In this document: positions 12,863 to 45,608 of the stretch, one piece after another
How the letters are laid out: every line of letters starts with the position of its first letter
Position numbering within the stretch: the stretch's first letter is position 1
Origin: Lobosporangium transversale
Lineage: Eukaryota; Mortierellomycota; Mortierellomycetes; Mortierellales; Mortierellaceae
Length of the DNA stretch: 64,000 bases
Reading direction: 5' to 3'
Assembly: GCF_002105155.1 (NCBI RefSeq)
Contig: NW_019028986.1
Span: 264,501-328,500, forward strand
Program-made: the position numbers and the translations under genes
The notes under the pieces: generated by a model
Seen by the model: the letters and a program-made list of their open reading frames with translations, nothing else
What the model was told of the DNA's origin: nothing
Databases searched by the model: none

Positions 12863-12864
<2 letters not shown>
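12837..12864. repeat. T28 run abutting the desaturase stop codon
   Basis: Twenty-eight consecutive T on the plus strand. On the desaturase coding strand the TAA stop at 12865-12863 is followed directly by about 26 A, so the run replaces a normal 3' UTR start. Confidence 0.9.
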
Positions 12865-12867
<3 letters not shown>

Positions 12868-14326
12868 GGTCTTTCTTGGTATCTGGGCGGACAATCCTTT
12901 GCGCCTCAACGAATTCATTTGCCTCATGCTTCGCGACCTCGAGGAAGAATCCTACTTGATCTGCAACATCCTTGAGCGCTGAATATACAATGTGGTTGCC
13001 CTTGGCAAAGCCATGGATGTGATAGGTCAAGCCAACTTCGTCACAAAATTGTCTAACGAAGGGCTGGGCCGAACGAAGGTTGTGGCGGGGCATACGGGGG
13101 AATAAATGGTGGATGGCCTGGAACTGAAGGCCTCCGTGGAACCAATCAAGCCAAGTAGGACAATCCACATCCATCGTTGTCCTGAGCATCTTGGCTGCAA
13201 AAGATTCTGTATCGCCCAACTCTTCGGTCGACATACCAAAGTGTGAGAGCGTGATCTGAACATGCAGCATGAACGTGAACATATGCGAGACGAGCACATA
13301 GGCAAGGATCATGTTCCATGTGGGCAGCTGCTTTAGGAAGTAAGGATACCAAATCCAGTAGATGGCCAGACCAAAAACCTCTTGCTTGCGATATGGATAA
13401 TTCTCTTCATTGATCAAGAACAACATAGATTGGACGTACAGGTTGAAGCGTCCAAACATCATGACGGGGTAATAGAGATAGTGCTGATACGAGACAAAGA
13501 ACTGGGCGATACGGTCAAAGACCATTTCCTTTTGATGGTAGGAAGAGAAGAAGCCGCGGAAGATCCTGGTCGTGACGGCAAAGAAAGGCAGATGTTGGAT
13601 ATCTGGGTCATGAATAGGGTGGTTAGTGACGATGTGGTGAACATAGTGCGACTTTTTCCACCATCCGATTGACAGACCGCCCAAAAAGTCGGCCAAAAAG
13701 ATGCCAATTCCATTGTCCATCTGTAGGTTGTGAGTGATGGAATTGTGGCCTGCATCGTGTGCAAAAAACGAGATCTGATGCCAAAACATGGCGAGACAAA
13801 GAGCCGAGGCCATGTAATGCATCGTGCATGTACCATAAAGGTTGAGAACAATGGCCATGGTGAAGAGGGTCAGATAGCGCGAGAACTCCCAGGCATAGTT
13901 GGTATAGTTGGTTTCGAACAGATGTTCCGCGCGGAGACGGGCCTCTAATTGGCGATATGCAGCCGAGACCTGAACGCTCTGTGCCTCAAAGATCTCTTCT
14001 TTAGTGCGAGGGAGTGAGTTGAGGATTGGAGCGAACTCTGGGTCAGATTCACGGGGAAGAAAATCTGCGATTTCAAAGTACTTGATTTTTTTCTCCAACA
14101 CATAGTCAGGGTGAAGAGCCTTGACTTCGTCTGTACAGTCGCGGCCAATGCAATGGCGAATGGCTAATTGACCACCAGGATGATGTTTGATCCATTTGTC
14201 GAGCTTGTAGACCTTTTGGTTAACGACGATGAGGATCTCGCCAGCCTTGCATCTTGCGTCGAGTTCTGAGCGCGAGATGATGTTCTTCTTGGTGTGAGGT
14301 TCCACGTAAGTTGATTCTGGTGGCAT
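12863..14326 (-). CDS. Cytochrome b5-fused front-end desaturase, delta-8 sphingolipid desaturase-like
   Basis: Membrane desaturase of the cytochrome b5 fusion class. These enzymes introduce a double bond into fatty acyl or sphingoid long-chain-base substrates in the ER, using NADH via the b5 domain. The single exon encodes 487 residues. The b5 domain has HPGG at 49-52 and a second likely heme His at 72. The desaturase domain has the three histidine boxes HDAGH (190-194), HYVHH (227-231) and QAIHH (403-407). The Q in place of the first H of box three is typical of front-end desaturases. Between the boxes are hydrophobic segments around 150-182, 205-222, 283-305 and 318-360. Overall features (SHYVHHIVTNHPIHDPDIQH, PRMPRHNL) fit fungal delta-8 sphingolipid desaturases better than the delta-6 acyl enzymes of Mortierella, but substrate choice cannot be read from sequence. 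It is the only intronless complete gene here. Confidence 0.9.
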
Positions 14327-14728
14327 CTCAGTCGAAAAGGGCGTGGTATGTTTGTGTTATTTGATAGGTCAAGAATCAGTAAAATTAACACAATTGACCT
14401 AGGTTGGAGACCACCCTTTAACAGACAGACAGAAAGAGAAAGGGGAGAAAAGAGAAAGAAAGAGAGGAAGGAGAGAGAGAAAGGGAGGGGGATGGATGAG
14501 GAGAGAGAAGAAGAAAGAGAAGGAAAAGAAAAAGGCACTTTCAACCTTTTTCTTTTTCAATGCTTTTCGATCGAATGATATTTTAGCTTTGGTATTTTGG
14601 CGCCCTTTTTTTATTATTTTATTTTATTGTTTTCTAGTCTGACACAACTGATACGTACAATCGTGGCTCTGTCAACATGCTTCTCCCTTATTTTGGGTAA
14701 GATTTTCGCAAAGCAAAAGAAACAAAAC

Positions 14729-16655: not shown

Positions 16656-19600
16656 ATGGCTGCCAACACCATTGTGGCCGATTTTGAAACATGGCAGACA
16701 TCTCTCTTTGCGGCTCTTGTCAAGGCTACAAAAGCATCTAAAGCCATGTCTCCGGACGACGTTGCCTTCTACCGAACACTTAATCCTTCATTTGCTACCA
16801 ATATGGAGGATGTCTCCTCTGCCACTCTTGACCTCTGTAACGGGTTACTGATACAGGCAGGTGGCCAGTCCGCAGAGGTGCTTAATGACGCAGACGATTT
16901 CACAGACCGGTTTAATATTATTACCGACGTTGTCGATAATATGCTTGAGAAAGTGGTAAATAATAATAGTGATAATAATAATAAAAACCTCCCTTTGGTT
17001 GCAATGGGCATTAACCAATTTTGTTTTATTTTCTGACTCGGACTGGATTTTACAATATATACAAAATGCACTATAGGATGTAACAATTGACGAAATGAAA
17101 GATCCTCGAAAGAAAAGTGGTCCAGTTATCCCACAAAGCGCTCCTGTTGTGGCCCTAGCTAAGGTAAGGATGAATATTAATGTATTTATTGAATATAATC
17201 TAGATGCATGATAGTAATATTTCTGAATAATATATTAACATTGTCGCAATTGTTTAACTTTCTAGAGCGACAAGTTGCAATACAAGTTGATCCATGCTCA
17301 AAACATTGCTAGACCTCAGTTGAGATTCCCTGATCCAGTTGACAACTCAAATGCACCATTCATCCGCAAGATCACTTATAAGCCAAATGCCAAGGTTGAT
17401 CTTAATTATGGCATGGATCGTCTCTTGACATCATCATCGTCTACGCCATCAGAACTTATTCAGCAGCCACATCCGTACGAATACGAGATTAAGCATCTAG
17501 AATATCCACAACATATGTTTGAACAACGACCGGAACAGCTCTATTTACCATTTGATACTACTACAGCCATTTGGATCGATACAGAGGAAGCGTTGAAGGA
17601 CATGTGCAAAGATCTGGAAATGCAGCGAGAGATTGCAGTAGATTTAGAACATCACAACTATCGCTCCTTTCAAGGCTTTGTTTGTTTAATGCAAATTTCA
17701 ACTCGTGATCAGGATTATATCATTGATACACTCGAGCTCCGGGGTTCGTTACATCTCTTGAATCAATCATTTACAGATCCCAACATTGTCAAAGTGTTAC
17801 ATGGTGCAGAGAGTGATATCATCTGGCTTCAACGGGATTTCGGTGTCTATATCGTCAACCTTTTTGATACATACCATGCCACCAAGCTGCTTGAATTTGA
17901 GAGCCATTCATTAGCTCACCTTCTGAAGTTGTATGCCAATTTCGATGCCGACAAACGATATCAGTTAGCGGATTGGCGTATCCGTCCATTGCCCAAAGAG
18001 ATGTTCAACTATGCTCGCTCTGACACCCATTTCTTGCTTTATATTTACGATCGCATGCGTAACGCTCTCTTGGACAAATCCAACCCTACAACACATAATC
18101 TGTTACATGCTACTCTTCAGCGCTCTGCAGAGACAGCACTTCGAGTGCATGAGAAGGAGGTTTATGACGCTGAGGGTGGAGATGGCCCCAATGGATGGAG
18201 GAATATGTACTCTAAATGGAACCGGGCCCTCAACACAATGCAATTTGCAGTATTTAAGGCCCTTCATGCCTGGCGTGACCAAACAGCTCGGGATGAAGAC
18301 GAGAGTATCCGATATGTGTTACCCAACCACATGTTATTTACATTGGCAGAACAGATGCCTGAGGATGCAGCGGGTGTACTCGGGTGCTGTAACCCTGTTC
18401 CACCTCCTGTCAAGATGAATGCATCCGATATTGCTCTTCTGATCAATCGTACAAAAGCAAGTGTACAGCCTGTTTTAGGAACATTCAAGAAAGTAGAAAT
18501 TGAAGTTCCTACACACATACGTTTCGACCCAAAGACAGGATTGCAGGGGGTACAAGAACATATTGACAACCCATCTGAAAAAGATGCTGTTAAATCAACA
18601 TTAACACCTTTGGAGAAGGCAGCACAACAGAATCAGTCCGGCAGTGTCATTGCAGCAACTTCTTCTAGCATGTTTGGAAATGGTTCTATCCATGCATCAT
18701 CATCATCACCATCATTAGCGTCCACCATGGTCAGCAAACCTTTAATTCATCCCACCTCCTTCATGGCATCGCGATCTAACTTGTTTGGTCAAGTCAGCAC
18801 TCTGTCAAATAGTTCTCGGATGGAAGAGGAAGGAAAGGAACTTGCTAAACGGATCATGCTCGAATTTTCAAACAGGCCTGCAGGGACGGCTCCTATGTTC
18901 AAGGAGCTTACTATAGGCGTAGTACAGCATGCCGATAACGTGCCTATAGAGGCAAACGAAGAGAAGACTAAGGACGAGGCCAAGGATGAGATGCAGAACA
19001 AGGAAACAAATGAAATCCTATTCACACCAAAGGAAGAACGTGAAACAAAACAGAAGAGGACTGATGTTCTAGTGCTCTCATCTATGTCCAAGAAGCGAGC
19101 ACGAGCTATTGATGAAGAGCGTGCAGAGCTCGTGAAAGAGCAGTCAGAATCTGCTGCAATATCTAGTAATGGGGCTGCAGACAACGCAGAGAAGGAAGAG
19201 GTGGTGGTGTCAGTTAAGAAGAAGAAGGCAAGGAAGGAAAAGAAATCGTCGTCTACTTCCGCCACCCCTTCATCCTCAGCACCAGCCTCGGGTGATGAGT
19301 TGCCAGAGTCCTTTAAACCCTTTGACTACAACAGTGTACGCTCTGTTGTTGATGAGAATATTGAGAGCATGACTACGGGCAAACGAAAAAAGAACAAGAA
19401 GAAGGCGACACAAGACTCTAGCAATTCCGAACCTGCTACGCGTATGTTTTATTTATTGCTTATTACTTTAAAAAAGTTTGTGTGTGTTACAAATTCGACC
19501 TTGAAGACATTTTCATTGATACTAATTAATTCTCATTCTTTATTCAGCATTCGATCCTTATGCTAAGCTGATCGAAAGTGCAGATCTCAAGAAGAAGGAT

Positions 19601-19853: not shown

Positions 19854-22800
19854 TTAGTTATCGCGCATCCATTGACGACGTAGAGGTGGCATTCGAATGG
19901 TGCCTGTACTTGACGAGTCCGACAGCACTCCTTGGCTGCTGCTCCGATGAACTTCATTTCTGGACGTGGGCCTTGTGTGTGTCTGCGCGGTGTGGAAGGA
20001 GTCCGTGGTATGGATGGTATCCACAGTGTCCGCCGTCTTATTGGACTCAATCCGGTCTAGCTTCGGTCGTCCAGAGTGTCTTTCTTCATCACGGCCCTGA
20101 TTCGTATCGCTCTCTTCCGATACTTCGTCCACGTCTTCATCTCCATCATCATCGCTGTCATCGTCATCGCTTGAATGTGAAGCTACTATGGCGGGATGGT
20201 TCAGCAGAGGGGAGATGCCCGTCGTAGGATCAACCGAGAATGAACCCAGTCGGCTACGGCTCCCTTCGCGGAATTTCTCCTTTCGTTGCTCTCTATGAGA
20301 CTTGCTTCGATCTCGTCGTTCCTGTTTCTGCTTTGCGGACTGGCGTCTGGCAGTTCGACTCGCATCTACAGCAACACTGACCATTTTGAGGCCACCTCCA
20401 CCGCCATCACAACCAAGAACACCCTCACTATCACTCAGTAAAAGCTCGCCACGATGCCTTCCCCTTCTTCCTCCCCGTCTTGAATGGCGCGAGTGTGAAC
20501 CCTTCCTATGCCTCGCGCCGGCAAGCTTTTTGTTGATCAACTCAAGATCGTTCTCTTCTACGACACCTCCTTGAGATCCTGCAAGGCTGTCCTCATCATC
20601 CTCCTCTTCTTGACCATCTAGTCTCTCGATCTCTTCATCCTCATCGTCCTCATCGTCCTGTTCCTTCTGCCAGTTCTCCTGTTCAGAGACCGCTCCAGGC
20701 GGTAAAGGAGACGTGCCTTGTGCATTATTATTACCATCGTTGCCAGTTACTTGGGCTCTAGAAGAGTGCCCACCCTCCAGAACAGCCATACTTTTCTGTC
20801 GAAGCATCTCACGCTTCTTTTTCTGAATCAGCTTTCGTTCTTGGCTGAGTTTCTTGACCAACTCGGTTTGAGTTCGGTTATCAAGCCATTTCTCCAAAAT
20901 TGTGCAAAGCTCTTCTTTCTTAATTGGCTTGGAAAGATAAGCATTCATGCCGCTGGCAATACACTTTTCACGATCTCCTGGCATTACACAGGCCGTCATG
21001 GCAATGATAAATGGGTCCGTGGCCGTGACACCTTGCACCGAACTTCGAATCTCGCTTGCAGCCTCCAATCCATCTTTAACAGGCATCCAAACATCGAGAA
21101 AAACAATGTCGTATTGTCTCTGTGGAACTGTTTCCGGGCTACCACTGACTTGTTGGGTATCGGCAGCAATATGCGCTCTGGCTACAGCTTCTGCGCGTGC
21201 TCGACACATGTCCACAGCCTCCTGGCCATTGTTAGCGAGCTCAGGTGTGATGCCAATGCGGCTTAGCATTCTGGAAATCACCCTTTGGTTCACAGGATTG
21301 TCATCTACTAACAAGCAGTGCAGTGACTCCAACTGGCGCTTACGCTCGCACTCAGGGAGATTCGTGCTGGGAGCAGCAGAAGGTGCCAAAGGCAATGAAC
21401 CCGTCATCAGCCCATGGAACATATTGAACAGTTTGGCTTGTTTCACTGGTTTGATCATGTGCCCTACAGAAGGATCAGAGTCTATAGGAGTAGATTGTGT
21501 TTGCGTCGTCGAACCTGTCTTTGCAGACACGCCAGAATTCCAAGGTTTGGCTGTCAACATTCCACTGTTGACAATGTTGGGCGTGTATGTGCTAGCTTTG
21601 GAGTACACACAGGAAAATAATGATTCTTCCTGAATGGATGAAGAGTCCTTGTTATCCGAGAATCGGCCATGGCCTCTCAGGCTATCAGAGAGGCTTTCAT
21701 GACTACTGCTAGCGTTGATACTCCTGGCAGACCGATCATCCGCATGCGTCATAGCAGTCGAAATGGAGCTTGGAGGGCTTGCTTTTACAACGGCAGTGGA
21801 TCCTACAGACGCCTTATTGAGCTGCAGCGACACATATTGACTACGACGATGGTATGAGACCAATACACAAGGTATGGGCTTTTCTTGCTTCCGTCTGGCC
21901 TCCTCGTTCTCTGGTTCATCATAAGGAATACTTCGCACCTGTTGCAGGACAGCTATACCGGGATTGATTTTGGCTTGAAATTTGTCAACATCAATCATGA
22001 TCACATCGACCTGGTTAGGATTCTGCTTCAGATATTCCAGGCCCTTTGTGACGTTCAACACCAACACCTTCTGGAAGCCCCATGTAGATGATTGATATTG
22101 CCAGGATGTTCGGCTCACACGGCGGTCATCCAGAATTAACAATTGCTTGTCGTTAAAGAAGGCCAAATTGAGTTGTTCAGCCACCGTGGGACAAGGTCCA
22201 GGCAATTCCAACAGTGTTGTAAAGTAGAACGTCGAGCCCACGCCTTCTTCAGATTCTGCCCACTAGATGTAACAATAGCAACAAAGCAAAAAGACAGTAA
22301 GTAACCAGCACGAATAATGCAGATTAACATTACTAAAGCACAAAGTCAGGGATGCAGAGTCCCTTGTCATGATCTTTTACCATTTCTCCATCCATCAGCT
22401 CGACTAGCCGCTTCGAGATAGCGAGACCGAGCCCTGTGCCACCAAAATTCCGAGTTACAGAGTCATCCGCTTGTGAGAAGCTCTTGAAGAGACGGTCCAT
22501 CCGTTCGACTGGGATACCACATCCCTGATCGACAACAGACCAAAGCAAATCGACCTGGTTCTTTTGTTCATGCTGATCATGGTCCTTCATGGCCCGGTCT
22601 TGGTATGGGCCACGGCCTGTAATTACCACTGACTGTCGGTGTCGTCCTGATACTCTGAAATCATTATAATTATTGCTATTATTTTTACGAGAGCGATTTG
22701 GACTGGATATTGAATCCAGCATCAAGTGGGATGATTCATGAACCGCTTCGTCATCATCGGTCTCATAGACTCGAGCTCCAGTACCGGGTGGTAGCTTAGG

Positions 22801-25800
22801 CTTGGGCTGAAGTTTGACAACAATGTTGCCCTTCCCTGTAAACTTGATGGCGTTGCTAAGTAAATTCAAAAGAATCTGTCGAATTCTGACTAGATCTCCG
22901 AGTACTTGTGTTGGTGTGTCTGGATGAAGCACAAAAGTAAGACCCAGATTCTTACTGGCCGCCTGCACCGAAACCAAGTTGCACACGGATTCCAACATTC
23001 GTGGGAGATCCAGAGCTTCAGGCACTAATTTGAGCTTGCCAGACTCAATCTTACTAAAATCCAGGATATCGTCAATCACTGCCATCAGTTGGTTTCCGCT
23101 AGACTCGATTATCTCAACGCAATCCATCAGGTCCGGGGAGAGATCAGATTCGAGTAAAAAGCGTGACATACCAATCACAGCATTCATCGGGGTTCTACAT
23201 TATCCAGTCCAAAACAAAAATAAAAAAAAAAAAAAAAAAAAAAAAAGAATTAGAAAGTGCAACTATAAAAGAACATCCTAGCTTGCCGAATCGTATGCCG
23301 AGAGTTTAAAACAAATGCCCAGTAATACCTTATTTCATGCGACATATTAGCTAAAAAGTTGGATTTTGCTCTAGCAGCTTCCTCAGCATGGTTCTTGGCT
23401 TGACTTAGATCCACTAAGAGTGCCTCTGTTCGAAGTCGCTCTTCTTCCAACTCAGCTGTCCGGGCCTGGAGATGCATGGTTCTAGTCCTGACCAACTCCT
23501 CCATATCATTGGCATACTTCTCTAACAGAGCGGCCATTCCACCAATCATGTCACCATCTGGGCTTATAAGCCTTATACGATGCAGGATATGTGCAAACGA
23601 GGGTCGCATACCAGGATTGGGCTGCAAACAACTACGAATCAAATGATTGACTGCTCCAATACTTTCATCCGAACCGTTATCTAACAAAAAGTCGGGTCGT
23701 AAATTTTCATACTTGATCATATCTAACAACATGGTGGGACCATTTATAGGATCCATCGTGGCCAATTGTCGAGCATAAGGTGTCTTGCGGGTCATGATCT
23801 CGTTAAAGACGATGCCCGCACTATACACATCGCCCGCCATGCTCGCAGTTTTGATAAACACATCTCCTCTTCGAACCAGGTTTTCAGGCGCGACCCACCG
23901 ACTATCGTGAATTTCCTTAGTTGTCTTTGCTACATGATATGAAATATCACTCAATTCAAGAGTTTCTTCCGTAGTGAGGTGCTGTAATGGAAGCGAGCCG
24001 GAGGAGCCGCTTGTGAAATGAGTATCATTACTTGTGCGCAAAGAATTGCGCTGTTGGCTGTGGCCGGTTTCTCCTAGGCCTGTCTCTGCTTGCGAAGACG
24101 CGCCATAGCTAGACTGTTGTGATTCATAGAGCTGCCATAATCCATAGCCACCAACTTTGACCTCCCAGCGACTTGTGATCAAACAATTGGCCGACCGTAG
24201 ATCACCATGAAAGTGGATTTTGGATTGATGTAAAAACTCCATGGCTCGTGAAATATCGGTCATAAATGAAAGTTTGAACAGCCAATTGAAATTGAGATCT
24301 GGGTTCGCTAAAACTTCTGTGAGTGTTCCTTTTGAACAATGCTCCGTCACAATGCAGATATCAGGGGGTTGGAGGCATATACCGATAAGCTCTACTAGCT
24401 TGGGATGGCGCAGCTCCATTACATCCATGATCTCAATACGCATCTTGCGTGTCAAGTTCACCTTCGTCCCTCCGATACGGCGAACAAACACTGGAAGATT
24501 GCGATATACTCCAATAGCTCTCCCATTTTCGTCCATAGGTTGAATACCGGAGGGACCTCCAACAAAAGTTGAATGGCTACGCTGAAATGCCCCAGTAGGC
24601 CTCGTGGCATGTTTGCTATGGTGGCCTAACCCTTGCTCTGCTATAGAATCAGAATCTTGTGTCCCTACACCACTATCTAGTTCGTGATACACGCCCATTA
24701 TCCTCTTGAAGTCAAGTATCCAAGAGTCGTCTCGAAGTCGTGAACGGCGCTTTTGTTTCCGACGGAGACAGAATACGAGTGTAACAATGATAGCTGTCAA
24801 GAAGACAAGTCCCAAAGGGAGAAAGATGGCCAGGTTGATATCGAAAGCTCCCTGTTTTTCGAGGAAGTAAGGTTGACATGCAGGATGTGCTTTTCCATAT
24901 TCATCGCAACTCAGGCAAGCTCTCGATCCTGTTTGGTTAGTGAATGTACCACGCGCACAGGCGGTGCAGTTGATGCTGTCTCGTTTATCACTATAGTAAT
25001 TTAATGGGCATGGTCGACAATATGGAACACTGGCATGGGTTCCTGAAGGCAAGCGACAAAATAGTGACGTTTGGTTGGTGCCTCTGGCGCGCTCCTGGCC
25101 CTCTTCGCAGACATATTCAACTTTAGTTGGCCCAGTTTCAATAATATCCCAAGCCCTGTCCTGCAGGGCTGTTGACATAGCCATCTGAATCACTGCCATA
25201 TATCCATTGAGGTACGACTGCTGAGTCCAGACCTTGTGAACTTTCTTCTCGATGAGATCTGTCAATGCTGCATACGATCGCCCTGTTGTGCTGACGAAGA
25301 GGGTACTACTGTTGATGTTATTTGGTAAAGAAAATAAATATTTGATATTATCATAGAGGCCGGATGACGTAGTGTGGATGCTATCATAATCGTAGATTTT
25401 CTTGAGCTCGATCATCTTCCTGGTCCCCGCAAAATCGCCGGGTGTCAGCTGTACGAGGAAATACTCAAATGGAGGGACTGAATTATCTCCTAATGTCTCT
25501 TTCAACCTGTAAAACAGCCCATCACACATCTTGATTTGCTGAGTAACCTTGTAATTTTGAACGACACAAACTGGTCTCTTACGACCGTTCCTTATAATTT
25601 CGTCTGCATATTCCTGACCAGCCCTATAACCATTCTCACCAACCCAAGAAAGGCTAGGATGACGCTGACCGCCGTATGGGTACCCAATCCCAACAACAGG
25701 CAAGGGGAGTACCTTGCCGAGAGTGTGGTTCCATGGTGGCAATGACTCACATCTCAAGCCTAAAGTTGGTATATTTGGATCCTGTTTATCACATTGCTCC

Positions 25801-27869
25801 CGAATGGTGCTATTCACGGCTCTTGTTCGCCAGTCGACTTGCTGTAGTGTTTTGTTTAAAGCATACTCAATGTATGTCTCGTCGGCGTTGCTTACGATTA
25901 GCCCTCTAGTAAGAGTATCGTTGAATGTGACATCGATGCTGAACTTTACAGATTCTTGTCGAATGGTTTCATACCGATACTCTGTCATAGTCCAGTTTAA
26001 GTGCATGGAGGCATCTCGAGCCCCAGTGGCTACGATATCCCAATACTCGTTGACTGCCGGGCTAGAAAATTCAGACGGGTTCAATTTTAGTTAAACAGCT
26101 CATGATGTTGCCACAAAATATATGATCAGATAGGTTGGCCAGACATAGCAGCAAAGGTCTGTATACTTGCCTGCCAGTGATCAAACTAAGTTTACCACCA
26201 TGCCCTTTTGTATTACTAAATCTCCATGACTCTTGTGCCAACATGTCTTCTGCATTTGACTTTGTAACCAACATAGGGCCTGTGCGAATACTTTGTTTAA
26301 CTTTTTCGCCAACCGTAAGCTAAGAAGAGGAGCAACCGACCAGTAACGATGTCAAAAAGTAATCAATAGTAATGATACAGTCAGAGTTAGCATATAGCAA
26401 GGTCTGTCAAAGGAGGAAGGAAAATAAAATAAATAAATAAATAAATAAATAAGGGATATTATGCAATATCCTACTATACCTGGATGTTGAGAAGCAAATA
26501 AGCGATGAAAGTCTGCAAATACAAAAGACTGGAGACCGAATAATGAAGCACTCCACTTTCTAGTTGATTCATCATATCTTTATTAAAGTCGAAGGCTGCG
26601 ATTTTGAACGAGCGTGTATTGTTGAGGATATATGTCACTCCGCTGGATAAGCCCGAGAACACCGGCGCTGTGAGATAGACAATCCCATTGACAGAGCTAC
26701 GCTCCCGAATGGTGTTCGCAACCGTGGTGCTGTTTATCCCGTCAGAATAGATCATATAATCAGCAACATTAAAGGAGATACTTCTACCTGCACTCAGGAA
26801 TGCATTGAGTACTCCTCTGCATCGATCGAGTAGAGCAGTCAGATGATAGATGCCGTTGATGCAAACAAAATCTTTGACGCCTGAGTGTATGAAATCGTGA
26901 GAGTAACAATAAGTCAGGAGTAAAAGGGGTCGATTACATGTTAATGTGGAGGAAAATGAAAGCAATGCTGAGATAGAGCCCATTTTTTGGTTCCCAATTG
27001 TATGTCGCGTGGGATATCAACTCTTACCATCTTTTATCAATTGCTCACCAAGAAGCTGTCCGGCTTCAACCTATGATTTGTTGCCAAAACGACATGAGAA
27101 AACATCATTCCACTTAAAAATAATGCAAAATAAAATAAAATATAATAAAATTACCTCGTTCGACATTACTGCAGGGATACCAAGCTCCTTAGCAGCCTCC
27201 CAGCCCGAATAGACCGCAACAATGGGTATACCTCTGTTTTTGGCTTCCTCGAGAGGTCCTTTGAGTGCCTCATAATCGGGAATGGAAACAATAAGTCCAT
27301 GTGTAGGTGTAGAGGATTTAATGGCATCGTAAATTTTGTTCACCATACTTTCAATAGTGAAGTCAATATTAGAGAAGGCGTCGTTTAACTCCAAACCGAT
27401 AGGAGTCATCAAGTCAAGCTTGATATTGTCTTTTAGAAGAACACTTCCTATAGTTGCAACAGTAGTAATAGTCGTAGCGGCGATGTTACTCATAAACAAT
27501 TCATGAAGTACAAAAAGGATCATTGACATTAAGATTTTCAGACTAACGTTATCACACTGTTCTCTTACCATGGGTGATAAGCCATGTATTAAAATCGTGT
27601 TCATTGCCGGTGCAATTGGACGGTTCATTTTGAAGGGCTGTTAGGGTTACGATACCCTGAGTGTCAACAAAGCCCGTATTCTGAGGAGGAAGTGGTGATG
27701 TTGGCGTGGAGGGGATAAGTACACTTTCACTGCTATGTGCTTGGGCCGTTACAGTGGTGATGGTGGTACTGAAGAGCATGAAGAGCAATATTGATAAGAG
27801 TAAGAGAAAAGGGGGAGAAAACCATGCTCTGGATGCCCTCAACTGAGGGCGATAAGTCCGCGGAAACAT
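19854..27869 (-). CDS. Receptor-type hybrid histidine kinase with tandem PBP ectodomains and guanylate-cyclase-like pseudokinase
   Basis: Predicted plasma-membrane phosphorelay receptor of 2,380 residues from eight exons (27869-27569, 27447-27155, 27070-27028, 26880-26480, 26319-26171, 26061-23329, 23194-22381, 22262-19854). The joins keep frame throughout. Domains: signal peptide about 1-44 (ending TVTAQA); two type-1 periplasmic-binding-protein-like domains (about 60-390 and 396-705, the second opening NEYWDIVATGARDAS); Cys-rich GCC2/GCC3-like stalk 713-792; membrane span about 805-828; pseudokinase about 910-1228; signalling helix about 1236-1283; HisKA with His1304 (NMSHEIRTPMNAVIG); HATPase with N box (Asn1421), G1 DQGCGIP and G2 GGTGLGLA, with an ~85-residue insert; degenerate receiver about 1617-1740; intact receiver about 1892-2040 (D1898/D1899, phospho-acceptor D1968, K2023); acidic then basic disordered tail. 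The pseudokinase reads HGDLRSANCL, with VGGYGL replacing DFG, close to receptor guanylate cyclase kinase-homology domains. An in-frame ATG at 28139 would add 90 low-complexity residues ahead of the signal peptide, so I prefer 27869. Confidence 0.93.
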
Positions 27870-36645: not shown

Positions 36646-37942
36646 ATGACTCAAACTGCTGCTGCTCCCGTTAACACCGTTGTCCCCAATGAGAAGATCA
36701 GCGAGACTTTCAAGGACAATATCGGTATGTCATCTCTTTCCTTCATTTAATTTTACTCCCGCATATGTTTGGAATAACTGTCCCTAACTCTTCTCGTCAT
36801 TCCATCTCTGTATCCTGTCCATTGGTCTCTGATAACATCAATCATGTTGGCATTGTATCGTTACCCCACACTCCACCCTATTTTAACCGTTATAAATTCA
36901 AGACCTTGCTGTTGCTACCCGTGGAGGCAAGGTCTTGACCGTTTCAGACGAATGGTTCGCTGAGGCCAAGAATCTCTTGACTGCTGCTGCACCCATCCAT
37001 GCCCCAGGACGCTTCGTTCCCACTGGCGCTTGGTATGATGGCTGGGAAACTCGCCGTCACAATGCTCCCAACTTTGACTGGTGTGTAATCCAGCTCGGAT
37101 ATGCTGGTCACATTGCTGGTTTTGAAATCGACACTGCTTACTTCACTGGTAACCACGCACCCTTCGTCTCTGTTGAGGGCTACACTGAGACCTCGGCTTC
37201 AAAGGCTAGCGCTCGTACACATGAGGAGTGGGCTGCAGTTGAATGGGCCCCAGTCTTGACCAAGGTTCCTCTCAACCCCGGCTCTCGTCATGCTTTCAAG
37301 CTTGAGCAGCCCACAACCGATTATTATACCCACATCCGCTTCTGCATGTACCCTGACGGTGGTGTTGCCCGTCTTCGCGTCTATGGAAATGTTCATCAGA
37401 TTCACCCCGCCAACAAGCACGAGATCTATGACTTGGCTTCAGCTGCTGCAGGATCTGTCGTCACCGACTTCTCGGATGCTCACTTCGGTCACCCCTCCAA
37501 CATGCTTCTTCCTGGACGCGGCCATGACATGTCTGATGGATGGGAGACCAAGCGTTCTCGTGCTCCTGGCCATGTTGATCACTGCACAATTCGTCTCGGT
37601 CAACCTGGACATGTTACTGACATTGAAGTGGACACTGCTCACTATATGGGTAACCCCCCCAAGGCTGTCACCATTGCTGGATTTGAGATTGGCTCAGATT
37701 CCCCCATTGTGCTCTTGGATCAGGCCCCTATGACCCCCCATCGCCAACACTTCTTCAAGGTTCCCGCCGACTTGACCGAGAAGCGCATTGCCAAGATTCA
37801 GGTTGTCATGATCCCTGACGGCGGTATCAAGCGTGTCCGTATCTGGGGTGCTGCTCAGCTCCCTGCTGTTGAGCCCGAAAATTCTTTGATCGGTGTCCGC
37901 CAAGAATTGCCTGATGAGCACACCTGGAACCAGAAGAAGTAA
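36646..37942 (+). CDS. DAL2: Allantoicase
   Basis: Hydrolyses allantoate to ureidoglycolate and urea in purine (allantoin) catabolism, supplying nitrogen. Two exons (36646-36724 and 36903-37942) give 372 residues. The family's two tandem repeats are clear: the first with AWYDGWETRRHN, DWCVIQLGYAGHIAGFEIDT and YFTGNHAPFVSVEG; the second with DGWETKRSRAPGHVDHCTIR, GHVTDIEVDTAHYMGNPPK and MIPDGGIKRVRIWG. This length and architecture match fungal allantoicases. Codon use is strongly C-ending (GCC, ACC, AAC, GTC) compared with neighbours such as COP1, suggesting high expression. No other ureide-pathway gene is nearby. Confidence 0.97.
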
Positions 37943-43627: not shown

Positions 43628-45608
43628 ATGTCATCGTTTCCAAAACACTCCTATGAGCAAGCATATGATCATGCCTTCCCTCCAAGTCCACCTCAACTAC
43701 ACCAGTATATCTCTGTATTTCCTACGGTCTCAGAGCGGACACCACTCATCACTAAAGCTCCCACTACTCCTACTGGCCCTACTGCTACTAGCAGCAGCAA
43801 TAATAACAACAACAGCAGCAACAGTAACAGCAGCAAGCCTCAACTCTTACCATCTTTTGTAACACCTGGACCTTTAACACCATCAACAGCAACAGCATTA
43901 GTAACAGACACTGATGCACTTCTTGGATATGAGATTGAATATCAGCAGCAACAACAACAGCAACAACACCAACAATACCCCATCACGAATGACGGTTACC
44001 CTACATCTCTGTCAGCGCGAGAAACAGCTTTAAAGGAGCTTAGAATCTTATTGCGATACTCTGGACCGGTAGTATTGACTTATATACTTCAAAATTCGCT
44101 CCAGCTTGCCAGCTTAGTTTCTCTTGGACATTTGGGATCTATTGGTAAGTAAATGATTACTTATTGTAAAAAAAAAAAAAAAGTCAATGGATCGAGAGAG
44201 GACGACCTTAATGAATGGAATGACGATGGGTCACAAAAAAATAAATAAATAACAATAATAATGACTCTGTCTTTATCGCTATTTTTGTGTCATGTTTAAT
44301 TAATTCACTTCTTGAATGTTTATTATAGAGCTGGCGGCCTCATCGTTGGCCTCCATGTTTGCTTCTGTGACCTGTTGGTCAGTATCCCTTGGCACTGCAA
44401 CTGCACTCGACACTCTCTGCTCACAGTCGTTTACCAGCCATCATCCCCACACCCTTGGATTACATCTTCAACGTGCAATCCTCATCCTCATGCTTCTCCT
44501 TATCCCTATCGCAGGTGTCTGGTTATCTTCAGAACAAATATTTCTTTTATTGGGACAGGAGCCCGCACTTGCTCAGCATGCTGCCATTTTCATGAGAGGC
44601 CTCTTACCAGGTGCTCCTGCTTATTTGATCTTTGAGTGTGTCAAGAAATTTTTGCAGGCACAGGGAAATATGCATGCTAGTACCTTAGTCCTCTTGATTG
44701 CTTCGCCTATTAATGTCATCCTCAACTACGCTTTGGTTTGGAACAAATATATTGGCATCGGATATATCGGCGCGCCCATCGCCACGTCAATCTCATACTG
44801 GAACATGCTGATCTTGTTGCTCCTTTATGTTCGCTTCGTGGATGGGTATCAAGGTTGGGGAGGGTGGACACGGGATTCATTGACGGGTTGGCCTGCATTT
44901 ATGAAACTGGCCATCCCAGGGATATTGATGGTCTGTACAGAGTGGTGGGCCTTTGAGGTCCTCTCCTTGGCTGCCTCCTTTCTCGGCACAATTGCCTTGG
45001 CAGCACAGTCTGTTGTGGTACAAACGTCTGGACTTCTGTACACCATTCCATTTGGTATTTCCATTGCTGCGTCAAATAGAGTAGGCAACTTGATCGGCAT
45101 GGGTGATCATCGATCAGCTCAGATCTCTAGTCATGTCTCCATTGTACTGGCAGTCCTCTTTGGCGTCATCAATTCCTTGGTGCTCCTCACATTCAAGGAT
45201 CATTGGGGCCGTCTTTTTAGCGAGGATGCCGATGTCGTTAGCACAGTGGCCATGGTTTTGCCTTTTGTGGCTCTTTTCCAGATCAGTGATGGCGTTGCTG
45301 GCGTTGGCGGAGGTGTTTTACGTGGTGTTGGTTTGCAACATCTGGGCGCCTACTTGAATTTAATCGCCTATTATCTTGTAGCCTTTCCGATTGGTTTTGT
45401 CATGGCCTTCAAGCTCGGATGGGGTTTGCGAGGCCTTTGGGGCTCTCTGTGTATAGCACTTTCTTTGGTCAGTTTGGGAGAGCTGTGGGTGATCATCAGA
45501 ACTAACTGGCCATCCGAGGTCCGAAAGTGCAAGATCCGTAACGATCAGTTGGTAAAGCGCAGGGAATCCTTACAGGCTGAGATTGAGGCTACAATGCCAA
45601 CACATTAA
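43628..45608 (+). CDS. MATE-family multidrug/organic cation antiporter
   Basis: Twelve-span MATE (multidrug and toxic compound extrusion) transporter that exports organic compounds in exchange for H+ or Na+. Two exons (43628-44144, 44329-45608) give 598 residues. The first ~125 residues are a Ser/Asn/Gln-rich cytosolic tail with a poly-Q run. The core begins RILLRYSGPVVLTYILQNSL and includes the MATE hallmarks SLGTATALDTLCSQSF, GAPAYLIFECVKKFLQAQGN, PINVILNYALVW and, in the second bundle, KLAIPGILMVCTEWWAFEVL, PFGISIAASNRVGNLIG, GVGGGVLRGVGLQHLGAYLN and, at the last span, GLWGSLC. Substrate cannot be told. No frameshift or missing segment is seen. The gene is convergent with the zinc-finger gene, 378 bp apart. 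Confidence 0.96.

Follow-up and report, generated by a model that had tools for sequence, protein, structure and literature searches.

A receptor-guanylate-cyclase-like pseudokinase and signalling helix joined to a histidine kinase in Lobosporangium transversale and related fungal proteins

Receptor guanylate cyclases (RGCs) are commonly treated as an animal invention. In this study, a gene of the fungus Lobosporangium transversale was analyzed, located on the minus strand at positions 27869-19854 of a 64,000-nucleotide stretch of contig NW_019028986.1 (hereafter the window), whose product joins an RGC-like pseudokinase and signalling helix (S-helix) to a histidine kinase. With animal RGCs (GC-A/ANP receptor 1, the Trichoplax protein P0140 and the fish protein P0139) the window protein and its fungal relatives have in common the membrane span, a juxtamembrane Trp motif, a kinase-homology domain (KHD) with HG in place of the HR of HRD, and an S-helix with the motif EKYANxxExLVxxRT. 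They differ from them in having HisKA, HATPase_c and receiver domains instead of the class III cyclase domain, and an ectodomain of the Peripla_BP_4 type instead of ANF_receptor. The ectodomain of animal RGCs presumably has a periplasmic binding protein (PBP) type I fold, a likeness to the fungal ectodomain.

Hybrid kinases of the Sln1p, BarA and TorS type have, to our knowledge, no kinase-homology domain between the membrane and the S-helix. Their S-helix lies directly ahead of the DHp domain, as in the window protein, and its deletion or mutation alters the activity of Sln1p as well as of receptor cyclases; according to the available part of the same 2006 survey, an S-helix placed after a kinase domain was found only in animal receptor cyclases (PMC1592074). 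Another described system, the trypanosomatid DAK (Tb927.9.3120), resembles the window protein in combining a eukaryotic-type kinase with a histidine kinase cassette in one polypeptide, but its kinase domain follows the cassette and no link to a cyclase KHD is stated in the accessible portion of its description, which also mentions that UniProt holds further, mostly bacterial, proteins combining both kinds of kinase (PMC8519429). For the majority of fungal hybrid kinases a cytoplasmic location is predicted; Ser/Thr kinase domains are reported for groups X and XVI, and the latter is also counted with the transmembrane groups (PMC8510515, available part). The Ser/Thr kinase domain and the transmembrane region are thus common to group XVI and the window protein, which were compared by description only, and that description, as far as available, names no cyclase KHD, S-helix or PBP domains. 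Hybrid kinases called 'unprecedented', most of them with transmembrane helices, occur in early fungi, and the family presented here may have been drawn among them (PMC5285503, in part). No description of a KHD of cyclase type linked to a histidine kinase was found in the literature searched (text outside subscription papers, figures and supplements), nor in the available parts of PMC5285503, PMC8510515, PMC4965123, PMC1592074, PMC12394161, PMC8519429, PMC5795050 and PMC4897934. An earlier note on this DNA, made from its letters alone, had named no characterised protein with this layout; this held to the extent that no KHD-histidine kinase description was found, and needs qualifying in that group XVI of the hybrid kinases, with which the layout was compared by description alone, may already cover it.

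The gene runs from an ATG at 27869 to a stop ending at 19854, consists of 8 exons and 7 introns (6 GT-AG and 1 GC-AG) and encodes 2380 amino acids (aa). The earlier note had given exactly these coordinates, and the words it quoted are present in the translation. The order it had proposed (signal peptide, ectodomain, Cys-rich stalk, then pseudokinase) was recovered in the 2380-aa model by domain matches and a hydrophobicity scan, and the single span it had placed between stalk and pseudokinase is read at aa 808-826. Exon 6 (26061-23329) is a single unbroken 910-codon frame which comprises the second PBP domain, the stalk, the span, the pseudokinase, the helix and the H-box with the phospho-acceptor His1304. 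Since this exon is one open frame, the junction between the second PBP domain and the histidine kinase does not depend on splicing, and the helix does run straight into the HisKA-HATPase-receiver part, as had been proposed.

The pseudokinase (aa 914-1228; 23565..24509) was delimited by searches, profiles, alignment and a structure model. In a PDB sequence search it matched GC-A with 133 bits and GC-C with 86.5 bits, followed by ABL1 with 67, and for its Piromyces homologue P0110 the scores were 178 bits for GC-A (over KHD and helix), 105 for GC-C and 93 for the next protein, JAK. A profile built from 122 fungal-type rows only gave 152-202 bits with the animal cyclases (4/4) and 52-73 bits with ordinary kinases of L. 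transversale (7/7). The reciprocal search, in which the KHD and helix of Trichoplax P0140 were compared with the L. transversale genome, had the window gene as its top match (two pieces, of 71.2 and 66 bits), ahead of the best ordinary kinase (59.8 bits), while the pieces of a paralogous gene (52.7 and 51.3 bits) ranked below two ordinary kinases. When the structure model (mean predicted local distance difference test score, pLDDT, 76.7) was searched with Foldseek, GC-A intracellular chains took ranks 1-5 (E 8.0e-17 to 7.1e-15), with 2.5e-14 for the best other kinase. Judged by sequence, these results support a pseudokinase closer to the animal RGC KHD than to the other kinases tested. The earlier note had held that pseudokinase and helix track animal membrane cyclases, and the PDB scores, the fungus-only profile, the reciprocal search, the Foldseek order and the trees described below all bear it out; the check it had suggested, whether the pseudokinase lies nearer to ordinary kinases, came out the opposite way (GC-A 133 versus ABL1 67 bits).

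The window pseudokinase carries the substitutions beta3 Lys to Arg, HRD to HGD and DFG to GYG, and the beta3 Lys, the HRD Asp and the DFG Asp are kept together in none of 126 KHD rows (122 fungal-type and 4 animal; the window protein enters these residue counts, and both helix spacing counts given below, under two names, WIN and P0001). Being without catalytic residues, the KHD is not expected to phosphorylate protein. Arg replaces the beta3 Lys in 61/61 rows of the clade of the window protein, and the change of the HRD Arg to Gly was seen in 4/4 animal and 119/122 fungal-type rows. The juxtamembrane Trp motif (SWILDFK in the window protein, aa 842-848, 24705..24725, read by eye; e.g. SWKIDMKDV in animal cyclases) occurs in 8 of the 9 proteins compared by eye and is absent from P0141.

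The S-helix (aa 1236-1281; 23406..23543; LLEKYANDMEELVRTRT..EALLVDL), recognised by profile and alignment, was modelled as one helix (model residues 405-476) and keeps the RGC helix signature. A profile of the fungal helices gave 27-38 bits on all four animal cyclases, and 2.2 bits on the best of 7 ordinary kinases. The distance from the Thr of its RT motif to the phospho-accepting His was counted in 154 proteins, of which 18 had no motif, 5 (four of them the animal cyclases) had no downstream H-box and 131 had both. It was 47 residues in 126/131 proteins, 61 in four (P0110, P0111, P0022 and P0125) and 64 in one (P0145). The values 47 and 61 are two heptads apart, as expected of a register-locked coiled coil. 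Among 15 H-boxes of 9 bacterial-type hybrid kinases, 4 had RT-x-E/Q-L within the 75 preceding residues, at a spacing of 26 (one) or 33 (three), and the spacings 26, 33, 47 and 61 each leave a remainder of 5 on division by 7. The profiles of BarA and TorS match the helix-DHp junction. From the same Thr to a LeuLeu pair there are 13 residues in 4/4 animal and 2/2 gut-fungus-type proteins; among 130 other proteins the distance was 20 in 110 and 34 in 2, and the pattern was not found in 18. The fungal helix is usually one heptad longer than that of animal cyclases, but not in the two gut-fungus-type proteins. In the helices of P0022 and P0125 a heptad like LQARTAD is literally repeated, which amounts to a natural two-heptad extension.

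The design is not confined to the window gene. In a first protein search, the first 112 of the 120 best matches (of 2943 in total) belong to the KHD-histidine kinase family, including P0001, the deposited model of the window gene. By species name these comprise 92 proteins of Mortierellomycota, 18 of Mucorales, one of Piromyces finnis and P0111, its tree sister. All 112 listed members have a kinase domain and HisKA, 109 HATPase_c, 101 also a receiver, 97 Peripla_BP_4 and 87 all five, several of the others being marked partial, while a cyclase domain (PF00211) was found in none of the 112. The survey for the full architecture which the earlier note had called for thus returned kinase, HisKA, HATPase and receiver together in 101 of the 112 listed. 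The match following the family was a nematode guanylate cyclase, and the last seven of the 120 were histidine kinases of bacterial type, for which no eukaryotic kinase domain was listed. A second protein search passed 34 proteins, that is 31 fungal-type relatives, 4 of which list no kinase domain, and 3 animal cyclases, and in a third, made with a Mucorales/gut-fungus alignment, the best 120 of 7860 matches were nearly all known family members or the histidine kinase half of the family. A second L. transversale gene, the paralogue mentioned above, is built in the same way (C62:1190588-1195126; PBP, Cys-rich stalk, KHD, HisKA, HATPase, and a Receiver_CRE1-like domain plus a true receiver), with 48-63% identity to the window gene in KHD pieces. 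The KHD-histidine kinase design is confirmed as real and conserved, and constitutes a striking swap of output. Some database sources label P0027, P0096, P0058 and P0145 as 'RGC/RGC protein kinase', 'Receptor-type guanylate cyclase' or 'guanylate cyclase'. In P0038 (Mortierella sp. GBA30), PF00781 and PF19279, which we take to be of lipid-kinase type, are listed beside the receptor kinase set, as a real fusion or a model error.

Two KHD trees were calculated. The first contained 38 rows (27 of the 122 fungal-type, 4 animal and 7 ordinary L. transversale kinases) and drew a program warning of long branches; the second contained 5 kinases, as the two longest outgroup rows were removed after the first tree had been seen, and both were composed without animal or plant tyrosine kinases (TK) and tyrosine kinase-like (TKL) kinases. 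Fungal and animal KHDs stand together on one side of a branch separating them from the kinases, with support of 86/85 (7 kinases) and 100/100 (5 kinases). In the first tree the fungal KHDs form one clade (100/98), which holds Mortierellomycota, Mucorales and gut fungi. The four animal rows form no single clade in either tree and the fungal clade lies among them, the node that groups the fungi with all three animal rows other than P0139 having a support of 81/59 in the first and 94/84 in the second tree. One conceivable origin, which we regard as rather doubtful, is that the KHD-helix cassette entered fungi by an old transfer from a cyclase of the animal lineage and was fused to a resident histidine kinase. 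The position of the fungal clade among the animal rows, which were together in only 2% and 3% of 200 bootstrap trees (first and second tree, respectively), speaks for such a transfer, as does the second protein search, in which the only matches outside the fungal family were animal cyclases (3/34). On the other hand, the approximately unbiased (AU) test did not reject the animals as one clade (p 0.176), the branches are long, there are four animal rows only, and the breadth of the fungal clade means that a transfer would have to be very old or repeated. According to a different scenario, which seems improbable, the KHD and S-helix would be an ancient coupling cassette of opisthokonts whose first output was a histidine kinase. 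The S-helix, which in bacteria is commonly found next to histidine kinases, would have been acquired together with that kinase, and the exchange of the kinase half for a cyclase would have given rise to animal receptor cyclases; gut-fungus-type proteins, which have the animal helix spacing (13 residues from Thr to LeuLeu) yet a histidine kinase end, would then be the closest surviving form of the ancestor. The odds of this scenario are lowered because the trees lean weakly towards fungi among the animal rows. If the cassette was inherited vertically, it predates the split of gut fungi from Mortierellomycota, and if it was transferred, the transfer is itself notable.

We consider it likely that the window protein is a transmembrane hybrid histidine kinase receptor, with a PBP pair outside and the cytosolic cassette of a receptor cyclase set in helical register with DHp, in which the KHD couples the receptor to a phosphorelay. 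What the comparisons could show, at the level of sequence, are the parts, their order, their kinship and the register. In the proposed mechanism, a small sugar- or cyclitol-like ligand would close a PBP domain, closure would change the dimer at the membrane, and the KHD, as an allosteric coupler (the role it is held to have in animal cyclases), would hand this change to the S-helix coiled coil, so that the DHp/ATPase core would switch between kinase and phosphatase states. Phosphate would then pass from His1304 to Asp1968, an HPt protein and response regulators. Between the membrane and the end of the helix, the protein is built like a receptor guanylate cyclase and probably functions like one. 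Of the characters of a receptor cyclase, it has the RGC-type KHD and the S-helix following it; it is not a receptor guanylate cyclase as a whole, because the cyclase domain and the ANF ectodomain are absent. The occurrence of the same pseudokinase and helix with a histidine kinase output means that the coupler is portable between outputs, and the fungal family offers a yeast-tractable route to how a KHD sends the signal of a ligand. Two points weigh against the coupler account. Firstly, VIA-align ties GC-A (28.2) with RIP2K (28.8) and BRAF (28.3), so that the fold by itself decides nothing. Secondly, as most linker lengths are inherited, independent evidence for the register comes down to about three length changes, each of whole heptads.

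Alternatively, the KHD may stand outside the line of signalling as a docking platform for partners, with the histidine kinase answering the span and stalk directly or being constitutive. This is unlikely in our view. The active sites of the KHDs are degenerate in different ways in different clades, and the long low-confidence insert of the window protein (about aa 1042-1116; pLDDT below 50 at model residues 218-272) lies in the activation segment, both of which would suit a docking role, but heptad register is maintained along the linker between the KHD-side helix and DHp despite changes of length, which a docking domain would not need.

It could also be argued that the window protein is a fungal hybrid kinase of the usual sort (group X or XVI), its Ser/Thr-kinase-like domain being generic and its likeness to cyclases only general kinase similarity. 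Group X hybrid kinases have an AAA region and are not known to have a membrane span; the window protein has in common with them a kinase-like domain ahead of a hybrid histidine kinase, and differs in having a span at aa 808-826 and no AAA match. Two loci of L. transversale, which we take to be of group X, have AAA_16 and HisKA matches on the same strand with about 5 kb between them, and kinase-like frames with Pkinase scores of 20.3 and 18 bits, below the cut-off. They gave 6.4 and 0.4 bits, respectively, with the KHD profile (C-lobe exon only), in line with the separation from group X drawn in the earlier note. Such a generic domain would agree with the VIA-align tie and with the Ser/Thr kinase domains ascribed to groups X and XVI, the latter among the transmembrane groups (PMC8510515, available part). 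Against it, profile and PDB scores separate the window protein from ordinary kinases about twofold, RGC and fungal KHDs share one side of a branch in both trees, the group-X-like proteins hardly score with the KHD profile in their C-lobe exon, and membership in group XVI would be a label rather than a rival to the KHD assignment. Altogether, we find this reading very improbable. An artefact in which adjacent receptor and kinase genes were read as one has a negligible chance. In its favour, the deposited model has a different N-terminus and departs at one intron, and splice choices underlie the signal peptide and PBP domain 1; against it, exon 6 crosses the junction in one open frame, which refutes it from the second PBP domain onward, and the same fusion recurs in relatives.

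As to the gene model, P0001 (BX616_008460, 2339 aa) is identical to the 2380-aa model at 2339/2339 aligned residues and is without residues 1-30, which include part of the hydrophobic run of the signal peptide, and residues 388-398, at the GC-AG intron. The latter is intron 5 (26170-26062), where the deposited model is 11 residues short. For exon 1, an alternative with ATG 27870 and acceptor 27488 gave a frame break and was replaced by ATG 27869 and acceptor 27447. In intron 6, which splits the HisKA domain, a 36-base A/T homopolymer-like run (23211-23246, 88% match) lies near the acceptor, and comparable A/T runs are visible in other frames of the L. transversale genome.

The outer half begins with the start codon and signal peptide (aa 1-42, hydrophobic at 22-40 and followed by TVTA|QA, with the cleavage site placed by eye; 27744..27869); the orthologues P0003 and P0014 have a similar hydrophobic stretch ahead of ..AQ. 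PBP domain 1 (Peripla_BP_4, Pfam E 5.9e-15; aa 127-350; 26308..27370) is encoded on exons 2-5, and together with the signal peptide (exons 1-5 in all) it depends on splice choices. It is followed by PBP domain 2 (about aa 397-709; 25122..26060), the Cys-rich stalk (an Ephrin_rec_like domain match, with 9 Cys in aa 710-792; 24876..25109) and the span (aa 808-826; 24771..24827). A plain hydrophobicity scan of the 2380-aa protein offered three candidate spans, namely aa 22-40, aa 331-349 (weak, 1.57) and aa 808-826 (strongest, 2.73), of which we read the first as the signal peptide and the second, lying inside its Pfam match, as part of PBP domain 1, leaving a single span at 808-826.

By its domain matches, the ectodomain is a pair of CUT2/Peripla_BP_4 sugar-type PBP domains. 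In a Pfam scan (E up to 1) it matched Peripla_BP_4 and, weakly, Peripla_BP_1, and the same scan gave no ANF_receptor match in the window protein; elsewhere in the genome, ANF_receptor matches above the cut-off occur at C36:292739-293279 and C73:929794. The receptor-cyclase chassis seen by the earlier note therefore holds from the membrane inwards and fails for the ectodomain. The fungal PBP domains are like CUT2 sugar/inositol-type binding proteins (PDB 4ru1; rhizopine-binding family NF052284) in sequence and fold, but in the window protein they are fused to a eukaryotic receptor, and their NCBIfam scores, up to 111.7, lie far below the NF052284 cut-off of 420. A sugar or cyclitol as the ligand class is a lead only. 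The ectodomain was modelled for the orthologue P0135 (mean pLDDT 67.7), and most VIA-align rows did not cover PBP domain 1; a PDB sequence search with the PBP-2/stalk piece of the window protein gave 4 matches, to Cys-rich proteins only. The family points to outward-facing small-molecule receptors in early fungi.

On the output side, the domain matches comprise (i) HisKA/DHp (aa 1294-1363; 23026..23369), split by intron 6 and with His1304 at 23337-23339, (ii) HATPase_c (aa 1404-1598; 22203..22905), which contains intron 7 and has the N, G1, F and G2 boxes, and (iii) a receiver (aa 1892-2038; 20883..21323) with Asp1968 at 21093-21095 and the DD, Thr and Lys residues. The window protein thus has the HisKA, the HATPase_c and the C-terminal receiver of a fungal hybrid histidine kinase with all their catalytic residues present, and a Pfam scan found no class III cyclase domain in it. 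A degenerate receiver-like region read from the sequence (about aa 1617-1857; 21426..22148) precedes the true receiver; Receiver_CRE1-like matches were obtained in the relative P0061 and in the paralogue. The protein ends in an acidic and basic low-complexity tail up to the stop (19854..20882). Matches in the L. transversale genome number at least 14 for HisKA and 2 for HPt. Two cyclase loci found in it (C67:271763 and C51:1706640) are both LRR-PP2C-cyclase genes, presumably for Cyr1-type adenylate cyclase, so that this cyclase is present in duplicate; they are not of the window receptor type.

The convergent neighbour (17266-19566, + strand) encodes a 3'-5' exonuclease with an HRDC domain, which from this domain pair we take to be of the Rrp6/EXOSC10 type. 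Other genes of the window encode a fatty acid desaturase with cytochrome b5 (12863-14356, - strand), an allantoicase (36896-37942, + strand) and a MATE transporter (44316-45608, + strand), all three being unremarkable neighbours.

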